From the NCBI RefSeq assembly GCF_002007215.1, contig NZ_MUHX01000004.1, forward strand, positions 1 to 64,000: a stretch of 64,000 nucleotides of DNA. Direction: 5' to 3'. This DNA comes from Pyramidobacter sp. C12-8 (GTDB lineage Bacteria; Synergistota; Synergistia; Synergistales; Dethiosulfovibrionaceae). Made by a program: the position numbers and the translations under genes. The first letter of the stretch is position 1, and the number at the start of each line of letters is the position of its first letter. Under the pieces are notes generated by a model that was not told where the DNA came from, searched no databases, and worked only from the letters and a program-made list of their open reading frames with translations. This document shows positions 1 through 14,407 of the stretch, in pieces.

Positions 1-183
1 GTGAGACTTCCGGATTCGCATGATGAGACTTCCGAACCTTCAACCTGTCTCATGGTGAGACTTCCGGAATCGGCAAGTCTCATAGTGAGACTTCCGGGAT
101 CTTCCGCAAGTCTCATAGTGAGACTTCCGGATTCGCATGATGAGACTTCCGAACCTTCAACCTGTCTCATGGTGAGACTTCCG
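1..183. repeat. Iteron-like repeat array inside the initiator gene (candidate origin)
   Basis: The 11-mer TGAGACTTCCG occurs seven times on the + strand, starting at 2, 24, 56, 86, 119, 141 and 173. Four copies are the right arm of an inverted repeat: GTCTCA-N3-TGAGAC at 47-61 and 164-178, and AAGTCTCA-TAG-TGAGACTT at 75-93 and 108-126. Bases 1-66 recur identically at 118-183, a 117-bp period (39 codons), so the reading frame of the overlapping gene is kept. Direct repeats plus dyads inside an initiator-type gene resemble lambdoid origins. The array may continue left of the window. Confidence 0.65.
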
Positions 184-428
184 ATTTTGTAAACCGTCCG
201 GTTTTGCCCTCGAGTTCGTTCGATAATCCCCTTTTTTCGAAGACCGTCCAGCGCCCGGCAGACCGTCGCTTTCGAACAGCTCGCCACGGAAGCGATCGTG
301 TCCAACGACGGCCAGCACTCTCCGTCGGCGTCGGCGTGGAACAGGAGAGCGATGAGAACCATTTTTTCCGACATCGGCAGATCCGACTTCAAGACGTTTT
401 CCGGAACGATCGCTTTCCGCTCGCTCAT
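1..428 (-). CDS. Phage replication initiator-like HTH protein (partial, C-terminus beyond window)
   Basis: The start ATG at 428 is preceded by a strong AAGGAGGT ribosome site and follows the ssb stop by 15 bases. The frame stays open to base 1, giving at least 142 residues. Residues about 15-75 form a winged helix of the type found at the N-terminus of phage replisome organisers and Rep proteins (motifs GECWPSLDTIA and SKATVCRALDGLRKKGIIER). After a YKIGS motif the protein becomes a low-complexity tail in which GSLTMR recurs, encoded by the DNA repeats at 1-183. The position downstream of ERF and SSB genes in a phage-like early operon supports a role in starting replication of the element, by analogy with lambda O. 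The replication role is inference; the HTH and repeats are seen directly. A plain HTH transcription factor is the alternative. Confidence 0.6.
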   Translation of the reverse strand, partial: MSERKAIVPENVLKSDLPMSEKMVLIALLFHADADGECWPSLDTIASVASCSKATVCRALDGLRKKGIIERTRGQNRTVYKIGSLTMRQVEGSEVSSCESGSLTMRLAEDPGSLTMRLADSGSLTMRQVEGSEVSSCESGSL

Positions 429-5847: not shown

Positions 5848-5892
5848 AGCACAGGCGCCCCGTCTTCGTATCGAAGACGGGGCGCCTGTGCT
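5848..5892. terminator. 21-bp perfect hairpin after the CI-like gene
   Basis: Arms 5848-5868 and 5872-5892 are perfectly complementary around a TAT loop, starting AGCACAGGCGCC. There is no T run directly after the stem; ATATTTTT follows about ten bases later. It separates the repressor from the cargo genes and probably ends the repressor transcript. It could also be a protein-binding or processing site. Confidence 0.55.
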
Positions 5893-5926
5893 TGAGGGCA
5901 ATATTTTTACGAAAGGGGACGATGTT

Positions 5927-7324
5927 ATGCTCGATTTCGTTGCCATCGATTTTGAAACAGCCAACAGCGGAAGGGACAGTCCATGTTCACTGGGAGCCGT
6001 GATTGTAAAAAATGGGACTATCGAGAAAACCTTTTATTCTCTTATCCACCCCCACGACTCCTGCTTTTACTTTGATCCATTCAATACCGAAATTCATGGC
6101 ATTACGGAAGATGATGTTATGGATTCCCCCGAGCTGCCTGAAGTGTGGAAAAATCTGGTCGATGATTTAAGTGGAAGTACACTCATAGCTCACTTCTCCA
6201 GCTTCGATTGCAGCGTTATACGCTATACGTTTCCCCTCTATGACCTTTCTTTCCCCGAGTGTACGATTCTTTGCTCACGTAATGTCGCAAAACGTCAATG
6301 GCCAGACTTACTTTCTTACGGTTTATCTAACGTCGCCGAACTTCTTAACTTTGATTTTATCCACCACAACGCACTGGAGGACGCCAAAGCCGCAGCAGCT
6401 ATTATTTTCGAAGCTGCCCGTCTCCAAAACGCAAACTCCTGTGAAGAACTTGCCCAAAAGCTTCAACTAAAAATGGGGCTTTTTCAAACAGATCAATACA
6501 TTCCATCAAGAAGACTATCTCCCAGGAGCTCCAAGAGCATTAAAATACCAGAATGTCTTGATCTTACAAATCCTGAATTGAATCCAGATGATTACCCATT
6601 TTGGGATAGAGATGTTGTATTTACAGGTACATTGCTGAGCATGAAACGGGAGGATGCTTTCAAAAATATCGCCGCTGCAGGTGGTCGCCCACAGAACGCA
6701 GTAAACAAAAAGACGGATTATCTCGTGATGGGAGAACAAGATTATAGTCGGTTTAGCAATGGAGAAAAAAGCAGTAAAACTATAAAGGCCGAGGAATTGA
6801 AAGCCAAAGGCAGTGCCATTGAAATTATCTCCGAAGCAGATTTCTTGAACATGCTTGGAGATAAAGTAACGATCCCCCAAAATACAAGCAGCGATTTTAA
6901 AGACGAAATATACTTAAAAGGAATACAGCCCAAATTTGATGAATCTCTGGAAACTCTTCGCCAAATCTGTGCTGAGGTGATTGAACCTCAAAGAATAAAA
7001 ATGAATCAACGTAAGTACTTCGCCGTGATTGAATTGGATGGAAACAAAGGCATGCCGATTTGCTGCTTTTTCACAAAAGGGAATTCCGTTAGCATCGCAT
7101 TCTATGATGAGAACAATAATCAAATGGAGCGATGCATCATGTATAAATACGACGCGCTTTACGACAACAGCTTCGACTTAAAAAATCTAATCCGCAAATA
7201 CCTTGGAATACCATTAGAAAAGCCCCCTTATGAAGACGGCCTTGTACACGTAAGACGGAGGGGCACAAGAATAGAATTTTCAATCGACTTAGAACAGCTA
7301 CAAGCTCAGAAAAAAGAGGAATAA
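5927..7324 (+). CDS. DEDDh exonuclease fused to BRCT domain
   Basis: The 465-residue protein starts at MLDFVAIDFETAN, after an AAAGGGG site. Residues 1-165 are a DnaQ/Pol III epsilon-like 3'-5' exonuclease with D8, E10, D94, H147 and D152 in the order of the DEDDh family. Residues about 226-312 are a BRCT domain (DVVFTGTLLSMKREDAF, then AAAGGRPQNAVNKKTDYLV) as in NAD-dependent ligases. Residues 330-465 form a third domain I do not recognise, starting near PKFDESLETL. Exonuclease-BRCT proteins occur widely in Firmicutes and on mobile elements. The coding DNA is clearly AT-richer than the flanking chromosome, suggesting separate acquisition. A repair or anti-phage role is inference. Confidence 0.85.
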   Translation: MLDFVAIDFETANSGRDSPCSLGAVIVKNGTIEKTFYSLIHPHDSCFYFDPFNTEIHGITEDDVMDSPELPEVWKNLVDDLSGSTLIAHFSSFDCSVIRYTFPLYDLSFPECTILCSRNVAKRQWPDLLSYGLSNVAELLNFDFIHHNALEDAKAAAAIIFEAARLQNANSCEELAQKLQLKMGLFQTDQYIPSRRLSPRSSKSIKIPECLDLTNPELNPDDYPFWDRDVVFTGTLLSMKREDAFKNIAAAGGRPQNAVNKKTDYLVMGEQDYSRFSNGEKSSKTIKAEELKAKGSAIEIISEADFLNMLGDKVTIPQNTSSDFKDEIYLKGIQPKFDESLETLRQICAEVIEPQRIKMNQRKYFAVIELDGNKGMPICCFFTKGNSVSIAFYDENNNQMERCIMYKYDALYDNSFDLKNLIRKYLGIPLEKPPYEDGLVHVRRRGTRIEFSIDLEQLQAQKKEE

Positions 7325-7400
7325 TGTCGTGCTAATTTTGTTTGAAGCGATGAGACATTGAACTGACATATGCACGCAGCACTGCGCCGATTCGCCGTGC

Positions 7401-7706
7401 TCAAGCCGGCGTGTGCGAGGCGCCGCGGATGCTCAGGATTTGTCCGTTTTTATCGACGCGCATTTCGTAATAATCCGGGTCGCCGATTACGTAAAAAGGA
7501 TTCGCCTCTGCAGTTTTATATCGCTCCATAAATTCCGCAGGAGTGAAGTGCCGTATTTCATCGTCGGAATCAATGACGATCCAGTCGCCGGCTTTTGCCA
7601 ATTCCACGCCGTGACTGTTGCCGATATAACGGTCTTTGGCCGTCTGAAACGCACGTACTTGGGCCGGGCGTTCTTCGAAAATACCAATCTTCTCATCCAG
7701 TGTCAT
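7401..7706 (-). CDS. PGDYG-like small protein, 101 aa
   Basis: The protein contains RYIGNSHGVELAKAGDWIVI, then EIRHFTPAEFMERY, the pattern of small phage- and plasmid-borne proteins that combine a GDW strand with a PxxFxxxY motif. AAAGGATCG precedes the ATG. It is the only cargo gene on the minus strand and is divergent from the protease gene with 37 bases between starts, so the two may share a control region. No enzymatic motif is visible. Function unknown. Confidence 0.6.
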   Translation of the reverse strand: MTLDEKIGIFEERPAQVRAFQTAKDRYIGNSHGVELAKAGDWIVIDSDDEIRHFTPAEFMERYKTAEANPFYVIGDPDYYEMRVDKNGQILSIRGASHTPA

Positions 7707-7743
7707 TGCAACGATCCTTTCTACTCGCGAAGGAGTGATATTG

Positions 7744-8562
7744 ATGACTGTACCAGTCCGTTTGCCCTATAACGAAGGAGTATTTTTTGCAACGGTTAGA
7801 ATTGTGGCATGCAATAGTCAACCTCCTCGAAAGTCGACTGGAACGGGGTTCTGCTTCAGTTATGAGCGCGAGGGAATGCCGCAAAGCACTTTCATCGTAA
7901 CGAACCGGCACATGGTTGCGGGTTTTGATAGTGGCACCTTGTACTTTCACAAATCCAACAACGGCAAACCCAGTTACGAGAAACCTATAGAATGCTTTGT
8001 TGCTTCGTGGAGCGAGTGGTTCTGTCATCCGGATCCGAACGTGGACATCGCCATTCTTCCAAGCGACAATAACATTCTGAGTAACGCCGGCATGGACGAA
8101 GAACTTTTCACGCAATGCGTCTCCTCTTCCCTTGTTCTTGATGATAACATGCCGCACCCGCTTGAGGAAGTATTTTTTGTAGGTTATCCGGCTGGCCTTT
8201 GGGATGAACAGCACGCGCTCCCAATTGCCCGGCGGGGAATTACCGCCTCGTTTATCAATCAAGATTACAATGGAAGACCATGCTTTTTGATAGACGCTTC
8301 CGTGTTCGGCGGCTCAAGCGGAAGCCCCGTTTTCCTTCTGTCGTCTAAATTAAGTTCGCGGGAACCGGGAACCATCTCATGGGGTAAAAGATGTTATTTT
8401 ATCGGCGTCGTTGCTGAAACGCAACTCACGCTCGCTCGGACATTAAAGGTAAATGTTCCGCAGCAAACACTCCCGGCAGAACATCTGAATCTGGGCATAG
8501 TTTTCAAGGCAAGAACAGTTATCGAAACAATCGAAGCATGGAAAAAGTCCACCGAAAAGTAA
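7744..8562 (+). CDS. Trypsin-like serine protease, cytoplasmic
   Basis: This 272-residue protein has the chymotrypsin-fold triad: H56 in IVTNRHMV, D101 in DPNVDIAIL and S192 in FGGSSGSPVF. There is no signal peptide, transmembrane segment or PDZ domain, unlike DegP/HtrA, so it should act in the cytoplasm. The start is chosen from AAGGAG ten bases upstream; a GTG at 7735 is the alternative. Stand-alone trypsin-like proteases of this kind are known as effectors in bacterial conflict systems. Its location in cargo between a repressor and an integrase is consistent with that, but the target is unknown. Confidence 0.85.
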   Translation: MTVPVRLPYNEGVFFATVRIVACNSQPPRKSTGTGFCFSYEREGMPQSTFIVTNRHMVAGFDSGTLYFHKSNNGKPSYEKPIECFVASWSEWFCHPDPNVDIAILPSDNNILSNAGMDEELFTQCVSSSLVLDDNMPHPLEEVFFVGYPAGLWDEQHALPIARRGITASFINQDYNGRPCFLIDASVFGGSSGSPVFLLSSKLSSREPGTISWGKRCYFIGVVAETQLTLARTLKVNVPQQTLPAEHLNLGIVFKARTVIETIEAWKKSTEK

Positions 8563-8654
8563 TCGATGCGATGTCATGCGGTCTGCCCCAAGCCGCGGTC
8601 GCTGTAAGGAGACTTTTATGGAAGTTCAGTAAAAAGAATTGAAGGTGTTCGAAG

Positions 8655-9884
8655 ATGTTATACCAAACACTAAGAAGTTATTACTATAAGAGTAATGCCG
8701 AATATCAATCAGAATACGAGGCAAGGTTTTTTGCTCCTTTTACCCGGCGATTCGATTTTGAAGTGCAGCAAACAGGATGGTCATCTACGCATAAAATCTT
8801 TTTCTGTTACACGGAAGAGATTGTTACACTTTTAGTGGATATCCTAAAAGAAAACTACGCACTAGGTGCAATTATGAGAAGAACCCCGATTGTAGCTCTA
8901 ATACAGCTAAACAAGCAAAGTCTACGCGAAGAAATATTCTCCACGAATGAAATTGAAGGGGTCAGAAGCAGCAGAAAGGAAATCAAACAGGCCATTGAAA
9001 ATCAATTGTCGAAAGACAAAAGAAACCGCTTTTATAGCATTGCAGGTAAATACATCAAGCTTTCAAAAAAAGAGTCGATTCCTTTTCAAACTTGCGAGAA
9101 TCTGAGAAATTTCTATGACAATTTTGTTGCAGATGAAATCAAAGCTGAAAATCCTCAAAATTTACCTGACGGAAAGCTGTTTAGAAAAGCCGGAGTTTCT
9201 GTGCGCACTCCTACACAAAAAGTTTTGCATGAAGGATTATTTCCAGAAAAAAAGATAATACAAGCAATGACCGACGCATTGGGATTACTTCACGATGAAA
9301 CCATTCCTTCTCTCATCAGAATTTCTATCTTTCACTACCTTTTTGGCTATATCCACCCTTTTTATGACGGTAACGGCCGAACGTCTCGATTCATTGCTTC
9401 ATATTACCTGTCCCAAGAGCTTCAAAATATCGTAGGGCTTAGGCTTTCCATAACAGTGAAACAAAGAAAAAAAGATTACTACCAAATTTTCGATGAAACA
9501 AATAGCGATATAAATCGAGGAGATTTAACCCCGTTTATTACCCAATTCTTGAATTTTATTCTAGTCACAATACAGGGACTTCAAAAAACTCTTCAGGAAA
9601 AGCTCCAACAACTTTCTAAATATGACACTGCTCTAAAGAAACTACTTAAAGACAAGGGATTGGAAGATGATCTGCTCCATCGAATCTGTTACGTTCTCTT
9701 ACAAGCTGCAATGTTTAGCAGTGATGGTGCAACGATCAGGGAGATTCAAGACGCGGTCGAAAAAGCACGAGGTACTGTTGATAACAGAATATCTAAAATA
9801 CCATCTGAGTGGATTCTGAAAGACACTTCACCACGACAACATCGGTATAAGTTTAATGTTTTAGCGTTACGTTCCCAGCTCTGA
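8655..9884 (+). CDS. Fic-domain protein (class II) with C-terminal winged helix
   Basis: The 409-residue protein has the Fic motif HPFYDGNGRTSR at residues 234-245, matching HxFx(D/E)GNGRxxR, which transfers AMP or another nucleotide phosphate to hydroxyl side chains of target proteins. An inhibitory helix motif (S/T)xxxE(G/N) is present at T97-G102 (TNEIEG), placing it in the class whose N-terminal helix autoinhibits. A Fic_N-like region precedes it. The last 80 residues (GATIREIQDAVEKARGTVDN) look like a winged helix, so it may bind DNA. No separate antitoxin gene is visible. The DNA is AT-rich compared with the flanks. The catalytic class is well supported; the target is unknown. Confidence 0.9.
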   Translation: MLYQTLRSYYYKSNAEYQSEYEARFFAPFTRRFDFEVQQTGWSSTHKIFFCYTEEIVTLLVDILKENYALGAIMRRTPIVALIQLNKQSLREEIFSTNEIEGVRSSRKEIKQAIENQLSKDKRNRFYSIAGKYIKLSKKESIPFQTCENLRNFYDNFVADEIKAENPQNLPDGKLFRKAGVSVRTPTQKVLHEGLFPEKKIIQAMTDALGLLHDETIPSLIRISIFHYLFGYIHPFYDGNGRTSRFIASYYLSQELQNIVGLRLSITVKQRKKDYYQIFDETNSDINRGDLTPFITQFLNFILVTIQGLQKTLQEKLQQLSKYDTALKKLLKDKGLEDDLLHRICYVLLQAAMFSSDGATIREIQDAVEKARGTVDNRISKIPSEWILKDTSPRQHRYKFNVLALRSQL

Positions 9885-10266: not shown

Positions 10267-10494
10267 ATGAAAAAGCGCTGTTTCGTCACAATCCTCGTTT
10301 TGTTCGCGATATGCGCTGCGGCGCCAACATTGCGCGCCGTAGCGGAGACAACGGTCTATATTGGCGACGAAAGTTACAAGTACCACAGAAAAAACTGCCG
10401 CACCCTGCGCGGCAACAAATACCCGCTGACACTCTCCGAAGCCAGGAAGCAAGGCCTCAAGCCCTGCAAGGTCTGCAATCCGCCGGCAGAGTAA
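10267..10494 (+). CDS. Secreted small protein with Ada-like metal-binding motif
   Basis: The 75-residue protein begins with a clear signal peptide (MKKRCFVTILVLFAICAAA, likely cut after A26). The mature part has YHRKNCRTLRGN, then LTLSEARKQGLKPCKVC, the HxxxC...CxxC pattern found as a tail on secreted nucleases and as a stand-alone domain. H40, C44, C67 and C70 are the likely metal ligands. GGGAGGAT precedes the ATG. It probably works outside the cytoplasmic membrane; the partner is unknown. Confidence 0.75.
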   Translation: MKKRCFVTILVLFAICAAAPTLRAVAETTVYIGDESYKYHRKNCRTLRGNKYPLTLSEARKQGLKPCKVCNPPAE

Positions 10495-10556
10495 AGGATT
10501 GAAACCGTAGATAAGCGAGAAAGAATTACTATTTTTTAAGCAGGAGCGTGACATCC

Positions 10557-11924
10557 ATGCGACCTAATCAGAAGTCATTGTCCCTTCAATCCCTTAAACT
10601 CGACCTACATAACCCACGACTGGACATCCAGAAGGATGATAACGCTGCGCTTTCAGCGATAATTGCTCAACAGAGCGAAAAAATTATCTACCTTGCAGAG
10701 GAGATTGTTAAGCAAGGTTTTATGGCGGACAGTCTCTTTTATGTGATGCCTGTTCAAGGAAATAACTCCCAATATACTGTCCTGGACGGAAACCGCAGGT
10801 TAACTGCTTTGCGAATTCTGCAGAACCCTGATCTGCTGGCAGGAACAAAGCTCAAGAATAAAATTAACTCCTTGAAAAAAATTATCAAAAAAGACACAAA
10901 TCTACCCAGTCATGTCGATTGTCTCGTTTTTCCTTCACGCAAAGAAGCTACGCTCTATCTGGAAAAGAAACATTCGGGACCAGATAAAGGACGCGGCGTT
11001 GTTCCCTGGAGATCTATAGAAAAAAGGCGTTTTAAGGAAAGACAGGGGAATACGCCTGACCGCATCGTAAACCTGCTCGATTTTTTGCAGGACGCAAAAG
11101 TTCCTATCCCTGATAATTTCCCCATTACAAACCTTGAGCGCCTTCTTAGCTCTCCTGATGTCAGGAAGAAGCTTGGCGTACAGTTAAAAGGCGGGCGTTT
11201 CTTCTGTGCCATAGAAAAAGAGGACTTTGTGCGCAATATGGCGCAGATCATTAACGAACTAGCACAAAAGGGCGCTGTCAACAGGATTCGTACTGTTCCG
11301 GATCGAGTTGCGTTCGTCGACACGTTGAATCTGCCTCCAGAGAGACCAGACATATTATGGGAACCTCGCCCAACAGGCGCGTCGACACCTTCAGCAAATG
11401 CATCTTCTTCATCACAGAAGGATACGCTGATCCAAGAAACGTTGTCTGCCCCCAAGAGACAACAAACTTCCACACAGGACAGAAAATTTCTGATTGCCAA
11501 GGAAACGAAATACAATATTCAATCCTCTGCTAACCCACGCCTTAATAACATTTATCGCGAATTAAAAAAGCTCGATATATCACTGTTTCCCAATGCCGGA
11601 GCCGTTTTGTTCAGAGTTTTTTTAGAATTGAGCATCGAGATATTTATACAAGACAAACATATACCAACACCACGTAATTGCAAAGATATGAAGCTAATTG
11701 AAAAGCTAAATATAATCAGAAGTTATTTAAAGGACGAAGGCTTCGATGAAAGAAAGTTAAAAGGCATCGATGTTGCAATCAGTAACAAAGATAACATTTC
11801 CTCGATCAATACATTCAATGCCTATGTTCATAATTCCAGTTTTAGTCCTGATCCGCAATCATTAAAAACTGCATGGGATAACCTTCTTCCTCTGTTCGAT
11901 ACCATTTGGCAAAAAGACAACTAA
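10557..11924 (+). CDS. ParB N-terminal-domain protein
   Basis: The 455-residue protein has a ParB/sulfiredoxin-like nuclease-fold domain at residues about 10-110 (DLHNPRLDIQ, then TVLDGNRRLTALRIL). The middle is variable with a Ser/Thr/Pro linker near 275-305. A helical C-terminal domain ends in NTFNAYVHNSSFSPDPQSLK, resembling the helical tail of HEPN-like and abortive-infection proteins, although no Rx4-6H motif is obvious. It lacks the HTH of true partition ParB, and no ParA is present. ATG at 10557 is preferred because AGGAG lies ten bases upstream. It is followed after 55 bases by the adenine methyltransferase, so the two probably work together. The function is inferred from context only. 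Confidence 0.75.
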   Translation: MRPNQKSLSLQSLKLDLHNPRLDIQKDDNAALSAIIAQQSEKIIYLAEEIVKQGFMADSLFYVMPVQGNNSQYTVLDGNRRLTALRILQNPDLLAGTKLKNKINSLKKIIKKDTNLPSHVDCLVFPSRKEATLYLEKKHSGPDKGRGVVPWRSIEKRRFKERQGNTPDRIVNLLDFLQDAKVPIPDNFPITNLERLLSSPDVRKKLGVQLKGGRFFCAIEKEDFVRNMAQIINELAQKGAVNRIRTVPDRVAFVDTLNLPPERPDILWEPRPTGASTPSANASSSSQKDTLIQETLSAPKRQQTSTQDRKFLIAKETKYNIQSSANPRLNNIYRELKKLDISLFPNAGAVLFRVFLELSIEIFIQDKHIPTPRNCKDMKLIEKLNIIRSYLKDEGFDERKLKGIDVAISNKDNISSINTFNAYVHNSSFSPDPQSLKTAWDNLLPLFDTIWQKDN

Positions 11925-11979
11925 ATACCTCTGGCCAAATCAAGCAACGTGGTATATACTTTCAGAGGAGGTGAATATC

Positions 11980-12876
11980 ATGTCATTTTATACTCCTTTG
12001 CGCTATCCCGGAGGTAAAAGAAAACTCGCTCAGTTCCTTGAGCTTCTTATCAAAGCCAATAAACTTGAAGGCTGCACTTACGTTGAACCTTACGCCGGCG
12101 GCGCAGGACTGGCATTGCACCTTCTCTTCAATCAATTGGCCAATAAGATCATCATCAACGACATCGACAAATCCGTTTTCGCCTTCTGGTATTCCGTACT
12201 GCACTATCCTGACGAGTTGTGCCGGATGATTCATGACACTCCCGTGACTATGGATGTCTGGTATGCACAGAAAGCCGTTCATCTCGGCGCAGATAAGTTT
12301 TCTCTTTTGGAACTCGGCTTCTCCACTTTTTTTCTGAACCGGACAAACCGTTCCGGAATTTTAAGCGCCGGCGTGATCGGCGGCAAAGCACAGAACGGCC
12401 GCTGGAAATTGGACGCCCGCTTTAAGAAAGACGAGTTGATTGCGCGCATTCAAGCAATCGCCGAGCGAGGCAACCAAATAGAGCTTTATGAAGATGATGC
12501 GATTCAGCTTTTGGAACGAATGGAACCCCGGCTTCGCAAACGCCCTGCTCTTTTCTACCTCGACCCCCCTTACTACCATAAAGGATCGATGTTATATCAG
12601 AATTTCTACGAGCCAGAAGATCATGAGAACGTTGCCAGCAGAGTAGAAAAACTCAGTTCCCCGTGGCTGGTATCCTATGACAACGCCCAACCAATCAATG
12701 CTCTGTACTCTCAGTACCGCTCAATGACCTATTCTTTAAATTACACTGCCCACCGAAAGGTCATGGGAGATGAGTTTATGGCCTTTTCAGATCATCTGCA
12801 GCTCCCTGGGAATTTACTGAGCGGAACCATGAAAATATCTCCAATGCACAACATACAGTTCAAAGAATCGGCATAA
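11980..12876 (+). CDS. D12-class DNA N6-adenine methyltransferase
   Basis: The 298-residue protein has the Dam/D12 layout: an N-terminal LRYPGGKRKL motif, the AdoMet-binding motif EPYAGGAGLALHLL (residues 36-49) and the catalytic DPPYY (195-199). The ATG is six bases after AGAGGAGGTG. Family members methylate GATC or related sites. No restriction endonuclease with a recognised motif lies beside it; the neighbour is the ParB-domain protein. It may protect the element, or form an epigenetic or defence pair with that protein. Confidence 0.92.
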   Translation: MSFYTPLRYPGGKRKLAQFLELLIKANKLEGCTYVEPYAGGAGLALHLLFNQLANKIIINDIDKSVFAFWYSVLHYPDELCRMIHDTPVTMDVWYAQKAVHLGADKFSLLELGFSTFFLNRTNRSGILSAGVIGGKAQNGRWKLDARFKKDELIARIQAIAERGNQIELYEDDAIQLLERMEPRLRKRPALFYLDPPYYHKGSMLYQNFYEPEDHENVASRVEKLSSPWLVSYDNAQPINALYSQYRSMTYSLNYTAHRKVMGDEFMAFSDHLQLPGNLLSGTMKISPMHNIQFKESA

Positions 12877-12915: not shown

Positions 12916-14136
12916 TTATTTCATCAATTCGATATCTCCTGAATCCACGCGCCCCTCTTTGACGGCGTCCAGATAGTCGGCCCACCACTGCATCATCCGA
13001 CGACGCAGCGGCAGCAGCTTGCTTTTGTCGTACGTCGCCTCGGTCTTGTCGCGTTTGAGATGCGACAGCTGACGCTCGATGGCCTCGTGGTCCCAGTGAT
13101 GCTCGTGCAGCAGCGTGCTGGCCATATGGCGGAACCCGTGCAGGTCGATCAGCGGCGGCGTGTCGGGCGCGGGCACGTGCACGACCAGCCATTTCAGCGC
13201 GACCTCCATGGCCGAAATCCCCATATACGGCGAGCCGCTCGGCGTGTTCCGCGTCGAGGGAAAGATTGGCTTGTCCTCGAACGGCTGCCCCTTCCAGCGA
13301 ATCTGCGCGATACGGCGCATGGCGTCCAGAATCTCCAGCGCCTGGCGCGAAAGAGGCACGATCTGAATGCGTTTTTTCTTGGCGTGCACGACGGGAATGT
13401 GCCATTCGTCCTCGTGAATCTCCGCCCAGGTGGCCCTGCGAAGCTCCGATCTTCTCACGAAGGTATAACCGACCATCCTGAGGGCATACCGCACGATCTG
13501 ACGCGGATAGCAGTCGATCGCCAGCAAAAGCCGACGCACCTCGCGCGGGTCGAACGCGGATTTGAAGTTCCGCACCTCCCATTCGGGGAGGGAACGGCTC
13601 AGATCGGCGGCGACGTTGAGGCCGATTTCCCCGCCGTCGAAGGCCAGGTCCAGAATCGACCGCGCCAGCGCCCCCGTGCGCCGCGCCGTGTCGATCAGCC
13701 CGCGCTCGATGGGGTGCTGCAGAACCTCCAGCAGTTCGGGCCGCGATATCTCCACCACCGGCCTGTTGGCCAAATACGGCAGCAGATACATCTCGATACG
13801 ACGCTTGATGATCTTGTAATGGTCGGGAGATACCGCCTTCTCTTTCTTCTTCAGCCAGCGCGCGAAGACGTCCCCGAAAGTCACCGTCTTGTTGCGAATC
13901 GACATGCCGGTGCGCGCCTTCATCTTGCGGTCGTCGCGCTCGCGCCGCGCTTCCTGCAGCGACATGACGGGATACTCGCCGATGACGACCTTGCGCTCCC
14001 TGCCGCCGACGAACGAGCGGATCAGCCATTTCTTTTTTCCCTTCGTGCTGATCCTCAGATACAGCCCGTCGCCGTCAAAAAGCATGTAGTCTTTTTCCTT
14101 CGCCGCAGCTTTGGCAATCGCCGTGTTCGTCAACAT
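12916..14136 (-). CDS. int: Tyrosine recombinase (P4-type phage integrase)
   Basis: The 406-residue protein has the N-terminal DUF4102-like arm-binding domain (GDGLYLRISTKGKKKWLIR), a core-binding domain and a C-terminal catalytic domain. Catalytic residues R228 (VRRSEL), H333 and R336 (HGFRH), H359 and Y369 are all present, so it should be active. The ATG at 14136 has GAGGTG six bases upstream; a GTG at 14145 overlaps that site. It lies at the element's right end, next to tRNA-Met genes, with its start facing them, the usual layout for integration at a tRNA 3' end. Confidence 0.93.
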   Translation of the reverse strand: MLTNTAIAKAAAKEKDYMLFDGDGLYLRISTKGKKKWLIRSFVGGRERKVVIGEYPVMSLQEARRERDDRKMKARTGMSIRNKTVTFGDVFARWLKKKEKAVSPDHYKIIKRRIEMYLLPYLANRPVVEISRPELLEVLQHPIERGLIDTARRTGALARSILDLAFDGGEIGLNVAADLSRSLPEWEVRNFKSAFDPREVRRLLLAIDCYPRQIVRYALRMVGYTFVRRSELRRATWAEIHEDEWHIPVVHAKKKRIQIVPLSRQALEILDAMRRIAQIRWKGQPFEDKPIFPSTRNTPSGSPYMGISAMEVALKWLVVHVPAPDTPPLIDLHGFRHMASTLLHEHHWDHEAIERQLSHLKRDKTEATYDKSKLLPLRRRMMQWWADYLDAVKEGRVDSGDIELMK

Positions 14137-14273
14137 GTGCGTCACCTCGGATTTTTGGTACGGTTTCGGCCGCGAAAAAATCGTCCACGAATTTTTAGTA
14201 CGGAAATAGGTACGCTTTTTTCTTGGATTCCCCCGTTTTCCGTCGGCCTTCCTCGGTGACAGTATAACAAAAA

Positions 14274-14330: not shown

Positions 14331-14407
14331 TGGTGGCGGTAACTAGATTCGAACTAGTGACACTGCGGGTATGAACCGCATGCTCTAGCCAACTGAGCTA
14401 TACCGCC
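14331..14407 (-). tRNA. tRNA-Met(CAT), elongator type
   Basis: A 77-base cloverleaf with encoded CCA: acceptor GGCGGTA pairs with TACCGCC, anticodon stem TGCGG/CCGCA, loop TTCATAC (anticodon CAT), T arm with GTTCGAATC. The first base pair is normal, unlike the initiator next to it. A tRNA-Ile2 with lysidine at C34 also has a CAT gene anticodon and cannot be excluded. Confidence 0.93.

Follow-up and report, generated by a model that had tools for sequence, protein, structure and literature searches.

PD-lambda-5 is an antiphage system that was obtained in 2022 by functional selection of E. coli fosmids (PMC9519451). According to the sections of that paper on the system, the E. coli version, cloned in a host without the mrr region, affected nine out of ten phages, in their plating or plaque size, and the authors' term for it is a compacted RM+Abi system; the accessible part of PMC10799925 repeats the founding paper's description. 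The word ParB has no occurrence in the main text of PMC9519451, its text sections on PD-lambda-5 do not name the acting part of the first protein (A), and no mechanism was found in the accessible parts of the literature on the system.

The window considered here is the whole 64,000-nucleotide stretch of Pyramidobacter sp. C12-8 DNA that was analyzed. By sequence comparison, the gene pair that it carries is a real and intact member of PD-lambda-5, already catalogued under that name. What seems to be new is a predicted HEPN-like fold at the C-terminus of A and the exchange of the partners of the methyltransferase (B). The features of the pair are:

10557 to 11924, plus strand: gene A, a PD-Lambda-5_A homologue of 455 aa, with a ParB fold, a helical middle and a HEPN-like C-terminus (predicted)
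10557 to 11006, plus strand: A residues 1-150, ParB/sulfiredoxin-type nucleotide-binding fold (predicted structure)
11013 to 11336, plus strand: A residues 153-260, helical middle, at the position of the ParB/KorB helix-turn-helix
11508 to 11921, plus strand: A residues 318-455, HEPN-like helical domain (predicted) in which E335, R353, E357 and H425 are conserved
11980 to 12876, plus strand: gene B, a PD-Lambda-5_B homologue of 298 aa, a D12-class N6-adenine DNA methyltransferase

Both reading frames are intact at these coordinates, in agreement with a preliminary description of the locus as a ParB-domain gene followed by a D12 adenine methyltransferase gene. The candidate starts of A are GTG 10548 and ATG 10557, and A was taken to span 10557-11924 because the ATG alone is well spaced from an AGGAG (10542-10546, ten bases 5' of it). 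For B the candidates are GTG 11971 and ATG 11980, which lie 46 and 55 nt from the stop codon of A on the same strand; the ATG follows AGAGGAGGTG (read by eye) and yields the 298-aa protein. A matched the PADLOC model PD-Lambda-5_A (PDLC03998) with an E value of 4.2e-129 over residues 8-455 of the 458-aa reading, and B matched PD-Lambda-5_B (PDLC04018) with an E value of 6.1e-120 over residues 4-282 of the 301-aa reading. The pair thus has both homologues, in the order A then B and near full length, and like PD-lambda-5 the window copy is on a prophage; it differs in its host, from a phylum in which A was found at E 1e-10 or better in 3 of 185 genomes (B, at E 1e-20 or better, in seven). The preliminary description's view of a two-gene system that is not well described therefore has to be given up, as PD-lambda-5 received its name, and its defense of E. 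coli was demonstrated, in 2022.

The domain searches gave a clear identity to B, which scored 67.3 bits against MethyltransfD12 (PF02086; cut-off 22) and has the DPPY motif that is invariant in the B alignment (7/7 sequences). Judged as a type II restriction-modification system, the pair has in B a methyltransferase with intact motifs; for an endonuclease domain, A offered one Pfam match, to GmrSD_N and below the cut-off (18.5 against 33.2 bits), no NCBIfam match up to E 1, and PD-Lambda-5_A models alone among the best 25 of its 26 PADLOC rows. A also matched phrog_9592, a family whose function is not known. The weak GmrSD_N match is the point of likeness to the type IV GmrSD systems (DUF262/ParB plus HNH); the window pair is unlike them in lacking an HNH match and in having a methyltransferase partner and a HEPN-like C-terminus, and membership of GmrSD was rejected on the bit score and the missing HNH match. 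The GC content of A and B is 0.42 and 0.47, against 0.60 for the flank at 20-40 kb. A predicted hairpin over the ribosome-binding site and start codon of B (11947-11983; z -1.67) carries no weight as evidence, because 14 of 200 shuffled sequences folded as well, and the eight promoter-like matches found compare with 4.8 expected.

The association of A with B was followed through 171 A loci gathered from relatives, plasmids, phages, GTDB genomes and IMG/VR, a set of 161 distinct proteins that includes the window (L001), near copies, and two loci from the same record (L009 and L059). A downstream B was present in 148 of the 163 loci with at least 900 nt downstream of A, and the gap was within 120 nt in 143 of those 148. 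Twelve of the 143 close pairs were convergent, and the median gap of same-strand pairs was 25 nt. Among the two nearest B matches listed per locus, none of at least 100 bits lay upstream of A in any of the 171 loci. The result was similar for the window plus 100 representatives at 70% identity, in which B was on the same strand in 87 rows, convergent in eight, missing from five and unjudgeable in one, and hence present in 95 of the 100 judgeable. The 100 relatives, which were also used for the A tree and the structure alignment, are clusters of those 145 A proteins, out of 160 loci (L012-L171), whose length was 420-560 aa and whose score was at least 170 bits; the other 15, among them the truncated L164 and L170, were dropped. 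A scan of genome contigs with A alone as the query found no relative. The pairing of A and B is far beyond chance, and co-occurrence of the two families, which had been set beforehand as a test of the pair, was found. An orphan methyltransferase with a chance neighbor is ruled out by the same linkage. In one phage record (OQ658368.1), a full B methyltransferase that is convergent to A (L005:5280-6155, minus strand) is unannotated in the deposited entry.

The structure of A was modeled with AlphaFold2 on 101 sequences (mean pLDDT 90.5). Residues 4-148 of the model aligned with ParB bound to CTPgammaS (7bnr_A) with a VIA-align Z score of 9.6 and 2.1 Å over 93 residues, and KorB (8qa9_B) aligned more loosely with residues 4-258 (Z 8.9, rmsd 4.8 Å). 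The ParB-type N-terminus previously proposed for A is thus upheld by structure alignment of the predicted model as a ParB/sulfiredoxin fold. The model has both the fold and the P-motif arginines expected of a ParB CTPase. All 101 A sequences share N19, R21, G54, the GNRR of residues 78-81, L85, H139, W151 and R195, the last of them sitting in the helical middle. We infer that the ParB-type domain of A binds nucleotide and DNA. Its N-terminal fold and GxRR-type box (GNRR) are those of the ParB/Noc/KorB CTP clamps, from which A differs in having a HEPN-like C-terminus in place of a dimerization domain and in lacking an NCBIfam match; a plain plasmid-type ParB was ruled out on the last two grounds. 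No partition-ATPase match was found among the ten window proteins scanned with Pfam.

The HEPN fold is common to many ribonuclease toxins, and Rx4-6H is the catalytic motif of active HEPN RNases. When residues 316-455 of A were folded alone, the model was confident (pLDDT 92.3, pTM 0.86) and aligned best with the HEPN protein 2hsb (Z 9.2, 3.0 Å over 119 residues), followed by AbiA (8.7), the sacsin HEPN domain (8.5), HEPN-MNT toxins (about 8) and Csm6 (about 7), values to be read with the caveat that helical domains and bundles reach middling Z scores easily. HEPN appears in the title of 11 of the best 26 rows (Z 9.2 to 6.3, aligned over 104-122 residues), and further high rows are presumably HEPN proteins as well; the 26 also hold a few proteins that could not be placed as HEPN, such as 3mfn. 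Designed bundles, hemerythrins and other helical proteins ranked lower, mostly at Z 5 or under. A Foldseek search with the domain returned no significant match (best E 0.59), sequence profiles of A or of its C-terminus found no meaningful relative in the PDB, and Pfam gave only weak scattered matches to 100 A C-terminal domains, the commonest being DUF4145 (7/100).

E335, R353, E357 and H425 are complete in 86 of 101 A sequences. Rx4-6H is absent from the window A, and is present in six of the 98 aligned A proteins that keep H425. The C-terminus therefore resembles HEPN toxins of the MntA-HpeT type, Csm6 and the HEPN domains of AbiA and AbiV in its predicted fold (residues 318-455), and is unlike them in that the window protein and 92 of the 98 aligned proteins with the histidine do not have the motif. 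Its model is that of a HEPN-type domain, but because the Foldseek search was not significant and Rx4-6H is mostly missing, it is called HEPN-like here, and its active site is regarded as unusual or altered. The preliminary description had regarded this region as helical and uncharacterized, and the pair as having no nuclease: helical it is, and the annotated domains include no nuclease, but a region that models as a HEPN-type domain, albeit one without Rx4-6H, is no longer uncharacterized and leaves the second statement true of annotation alone.

Fifteen loci had no B. One is L006, a Vibrio phage record whose sequence starts at A. Two (L164 and L170) match A in the ParB part only, and in each of them the ParB gene precedes one further gene, after which comes a C5 cytosine methyltransferase. 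The remaining twelve are of one kind (L010, L062, L070, L071, L073, L077-L081, L084 and L090), with an intact-looking A and no B within about 4 kb. Five aligned members of this kind keep the invariant residues and E335, R353, E357 and H425, and at position 57 all five, like the window protein, differ from the commonest residue. The five group together in the A tree with a support of 100. Those hosts that are named to genus or family we take to be alphaproteobacterial, except for L079, which is labeled Oceanobacillus and in which A is divided between two reading frames. In L070, L080 and L090, A has a convergent T5orf172 (GIY-YIG-type) gene beside it. The twelve loci imply that A can sometimes do without B, or else that a different methyltransferase stands in for it. 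A RAMA-domain protein was found in all ten of the B-less genomes searched, those of the twelve loci other than L010 and L079. The RAMA domain is a mark of CcrM-type enzymes; these are common in Alphaproteobacteria, so such a protein would be expected in these genomes anyway. The RAMA proteins fit a possible borrowing of host methylation by the B-less clade.

The neighbors of B were also variable. In the phylum, B adjoins A in G000 and G008, a divergent A in G042, and an ATPase protein in G003, G050 and G061; in G169 the contig ends there. In G003, a genome of a sister species, B is 98% identical to that of the window, and at the same tRNA site B and the integrase are shared at about 94% DNA identity over 4 kb, with a 556-aa ATPase in A's place beside B. 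Identity resumes at the ribosome-binding site of B (window position 11966). Much of the remaining island also differs, so the prophage is a mosaic rather than the product of a single clean swap. A 75-aa open reading frame (10267-10494, plus strand), whose start is signal-like, whose C-terminus holds a Cys motif and which has weak DUF6233 and Ada_Zn_binding matches, lies within the stretch that differs from G003.

The G003 ATPase has AAA_21/AAA_15 matches and matches phrog_3940 (function not known) nearly end to end. An alignment of 15 such ATPase proteins shows conserved Walker motifs together with TOPRIM-like ED.E and LD.D motifs; the TOPRIM label rests on the latter two motifs, there being no TOPRIM Pfam match. 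Among the best 25 PADLOC matches per protein none was end to end, all being partial. The ATPase and its motifs recall the OLD, Gabija and PARIS-type ATPase-TOPRIM proteins, from which it differs in being paired with a D12 methyltransferase. An ATPase with TOPRIM-like motifs stands directly upstream of a B-family methyltransferase at L181:7566-9236 (minus strand), L269:4985-6685 and L270:5831-7459, and in the viral loci described below. The ATPase-methyltransferase pair is a candidate sister two-gene defense system.

In viral sequences, 160 loci were scanned, of which 118 had a B of at least 200 bits and 92 were left after copies were merged. Among these at least 92 distinct loci the partner was A in 43, a member of the ATPase family in 34 and neither in four, and 11 were cut off; these are fractions of a sample, because they cover the matches listed only, and 11 of the 34 ATPase loci are (by contig name) seeds of the ATPase profile, itself made from 15 proteins. 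The C-terminal end of A is covered by 41 of the 43 A matches; of the other two, L213 is a ParB-only protein of 369 aa and L218 stops short. At three of the four loci with neither partner, a ParB protein without the HEPN-like part is accompanied by a separate second protein, and at the fourth B adjoins an integrase. Such a three-gene variant, with a D12 or C5 methyltransferase, was seen at L296:907-4024, L339:8175-11261, L325:2684-5836, L164:4001-7111 and L170:3983-7652, the last also with a Vsr gene. The second protein is about 330-350 aa long and has a conserved D..D..Q.A in five of five cases, a pattern that we take to resemble PD-(D/E)XK nucleases; Pfam gave it no match over the cut-off.

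On a quick tree of 86 B proteins, in which 28 of 83 inner branches were well supported, partner identity needs at least 12 changes, where two would be the possible minimum. On the well-supported branches, the ParB-HEPN label must have changed at least six times and the ATPase label at least five. With shuffled labels the mean was 30.7 changes, so partners still cluster on the tree, and exchange has been repeated but not free. These observations show that another protein type has taken the place of A beside B, and they suggest that several partners, A among them, are exchangeable within a single methyltransferase lineage. Exchange beside a near-constant B makes A likely to be a methylation-gated effector, and the effector role suggested for A in the preliminary description is favored by it.

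A rival explanation is an ordinary restriction-modification system. In that case A would be a DNA nuclease acting through its ParB/Srx domain, cutting DNA that lacks the methylation of B, and the C-terminus would dimerize or position the protein. A purely DNA-cutting A is a serious rival because other ParB-family proteins are reported to nick DNA, one of them being fused to an adenine methylase (PMC5512222, in its accessible part). The residues identical in 101 of 101 sequences all lie in the ParB domain and the middle, with none in the C-terminus, and ParB-only relatives adjoin other methyltransferases. However, the best ParB structure matches of A are CTP-binding clamps, and the joint retention of E335, R353, E357 and H425 in 86 of 101 sequences is more than a spacer would seem to need. 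We consider this explanation unlikely, though it is worth keeping in view.

The integrase gene adjoins a tRNA-Met pair, and A and B lie beside the integrase:

12916 to 14145, minus strand: tyrosine integrase of the carrying prophage (Phage_integrase, Arm-DNA-bind_3, phrog_1)
14331 to 14346, no strand assigned: attR core, 16 bp, 3' end of the tRNA-Met gene (read by eye from the junctions)

G159, a genome of the same species, has an empty site: over the 16 kb compared it matches the window from 14331 on only, and contig C106 of the window's genome carries the other flank of its site at 100% identity. The attL on this other contig repeats the 16-bp attR core, and the 16 bp common to both junctions are the tRNA 3' end. 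Genes for terminase subunits and a portal protein lie on the element side of C106, and one for a phage-type S24 repressor lies in the window. The att core and the terminase, portal and S24 repressor genes identify the carrier as a prophage, most likely one that is split over two contigs. An array of GTGAGACTTCCGG repeats occupies window positions 1-184, at the contig start, and matching SGSLTMR repeats are encoded at the start of C106 (by eye); this array is therefore the probable point, within the prophage, where the assembly is broken. Further possible defense cargo at 5888-9884 comprises a DnaQ-like exonuclease with a weak BRCT match (PDC-S48), a trypsin-like protease (PDC-S45, E 7.6e-69) that is also present in the island of G003, and a Fic protein (SoFic-like).

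Such a location would also suit postsegregational addiction, in which A is a toxin silenced by the methylation of B, the pair mainly stabilizes the prophage, and phage defense is a by-product. The pair does adjoin the integrase at the end of the element, and it is present in the window genome and absent from G159. We nonetheless think this improbable, as the E. coli relative came out of a selection for phage defense and was then confirmed to provide it (PMC9519451, sections on the system) and A without B persists in one clade. Least credible, and very improbable in our judgment, is a DndB-like regulator, a ParB/helix-turn-helix protein that represses or tunes a methyltransferase which alone modifies DNA: the predicted architecture of A and the ATP-dependent repressor DndB of phosphorothioate systems (PMC12704722, as far as accessible) lend it some color, but the alternative gene beside a near-identical B is an ATPase carrying TOPRIM-like motifs and by its domains no regulator, intact-looking A exists without B, a HEPN-like domain is unexpected in a repressor, and B is convergent to A in 12 loci.

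The explanation that we prefer, and regard as probable, is that the pair is a PD-lambda-5 antiphage module carried as prophage cargo, in which B provides the mark of self and A is a sensor-effector with a HEPN-like killer domain. B would place N6-methyladenine at a short site in the DNA of host and prophage. A would be the effector and probably also the sensor, its ParB-type domain binding nucleotide and DNA. Engagement of unmodified incoming phage DNA by A would switch on the C-terminal HEPN-like domain, which would cut RNA or otherwise poison the cell and so stop the infection. In this scheme, the steps that we infer are the binding of nucleotide and DNA by A, the role of methylation as gate, and whatever chemistry the HEPN-like domain performs. 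A constant methyltransferase with a variable partner is what would be expected if B writes the self mark and the partner attacks unmarked DNA. Against the antiphage module stand the missing Rx4-6H of the window A, a Foldseek result for the C-terminus that is not significant by itself, the twelve A loci without B, and the clustering of partner labels on the B tree. The ParB domain might also be what nicks DNA, given the reports on other ParB-family proteins (PMC5512222), and the HEPN-like part would then be structural.

A broader reading, put forward tentatively, is that the pair belongs to a modular methylation-gated family. A single D12 lineage would write the self mark and repeatedly swap its killer, which would be a ParB-HEPN protein, an ATPase carrying TOPRIM-like motifs, or a ParB protein with a second subunit. 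Reading of the mark would fall to the ParB clamp, and the B-less clade of Alphaproteobacteria would borrow the CcrM methylation of its hosts.

With a HEPN-like domain in A, and with A and the ATPase having repeatedly replaced each other, the mechanism of PD-lambda-5 becomes directly testable. If the mark of B protects equally against both of its unrelated partners, self/non-self marking would be a plug-in part for different killers, and the ATPase-methyltransferase pair would become a candidate defense system.
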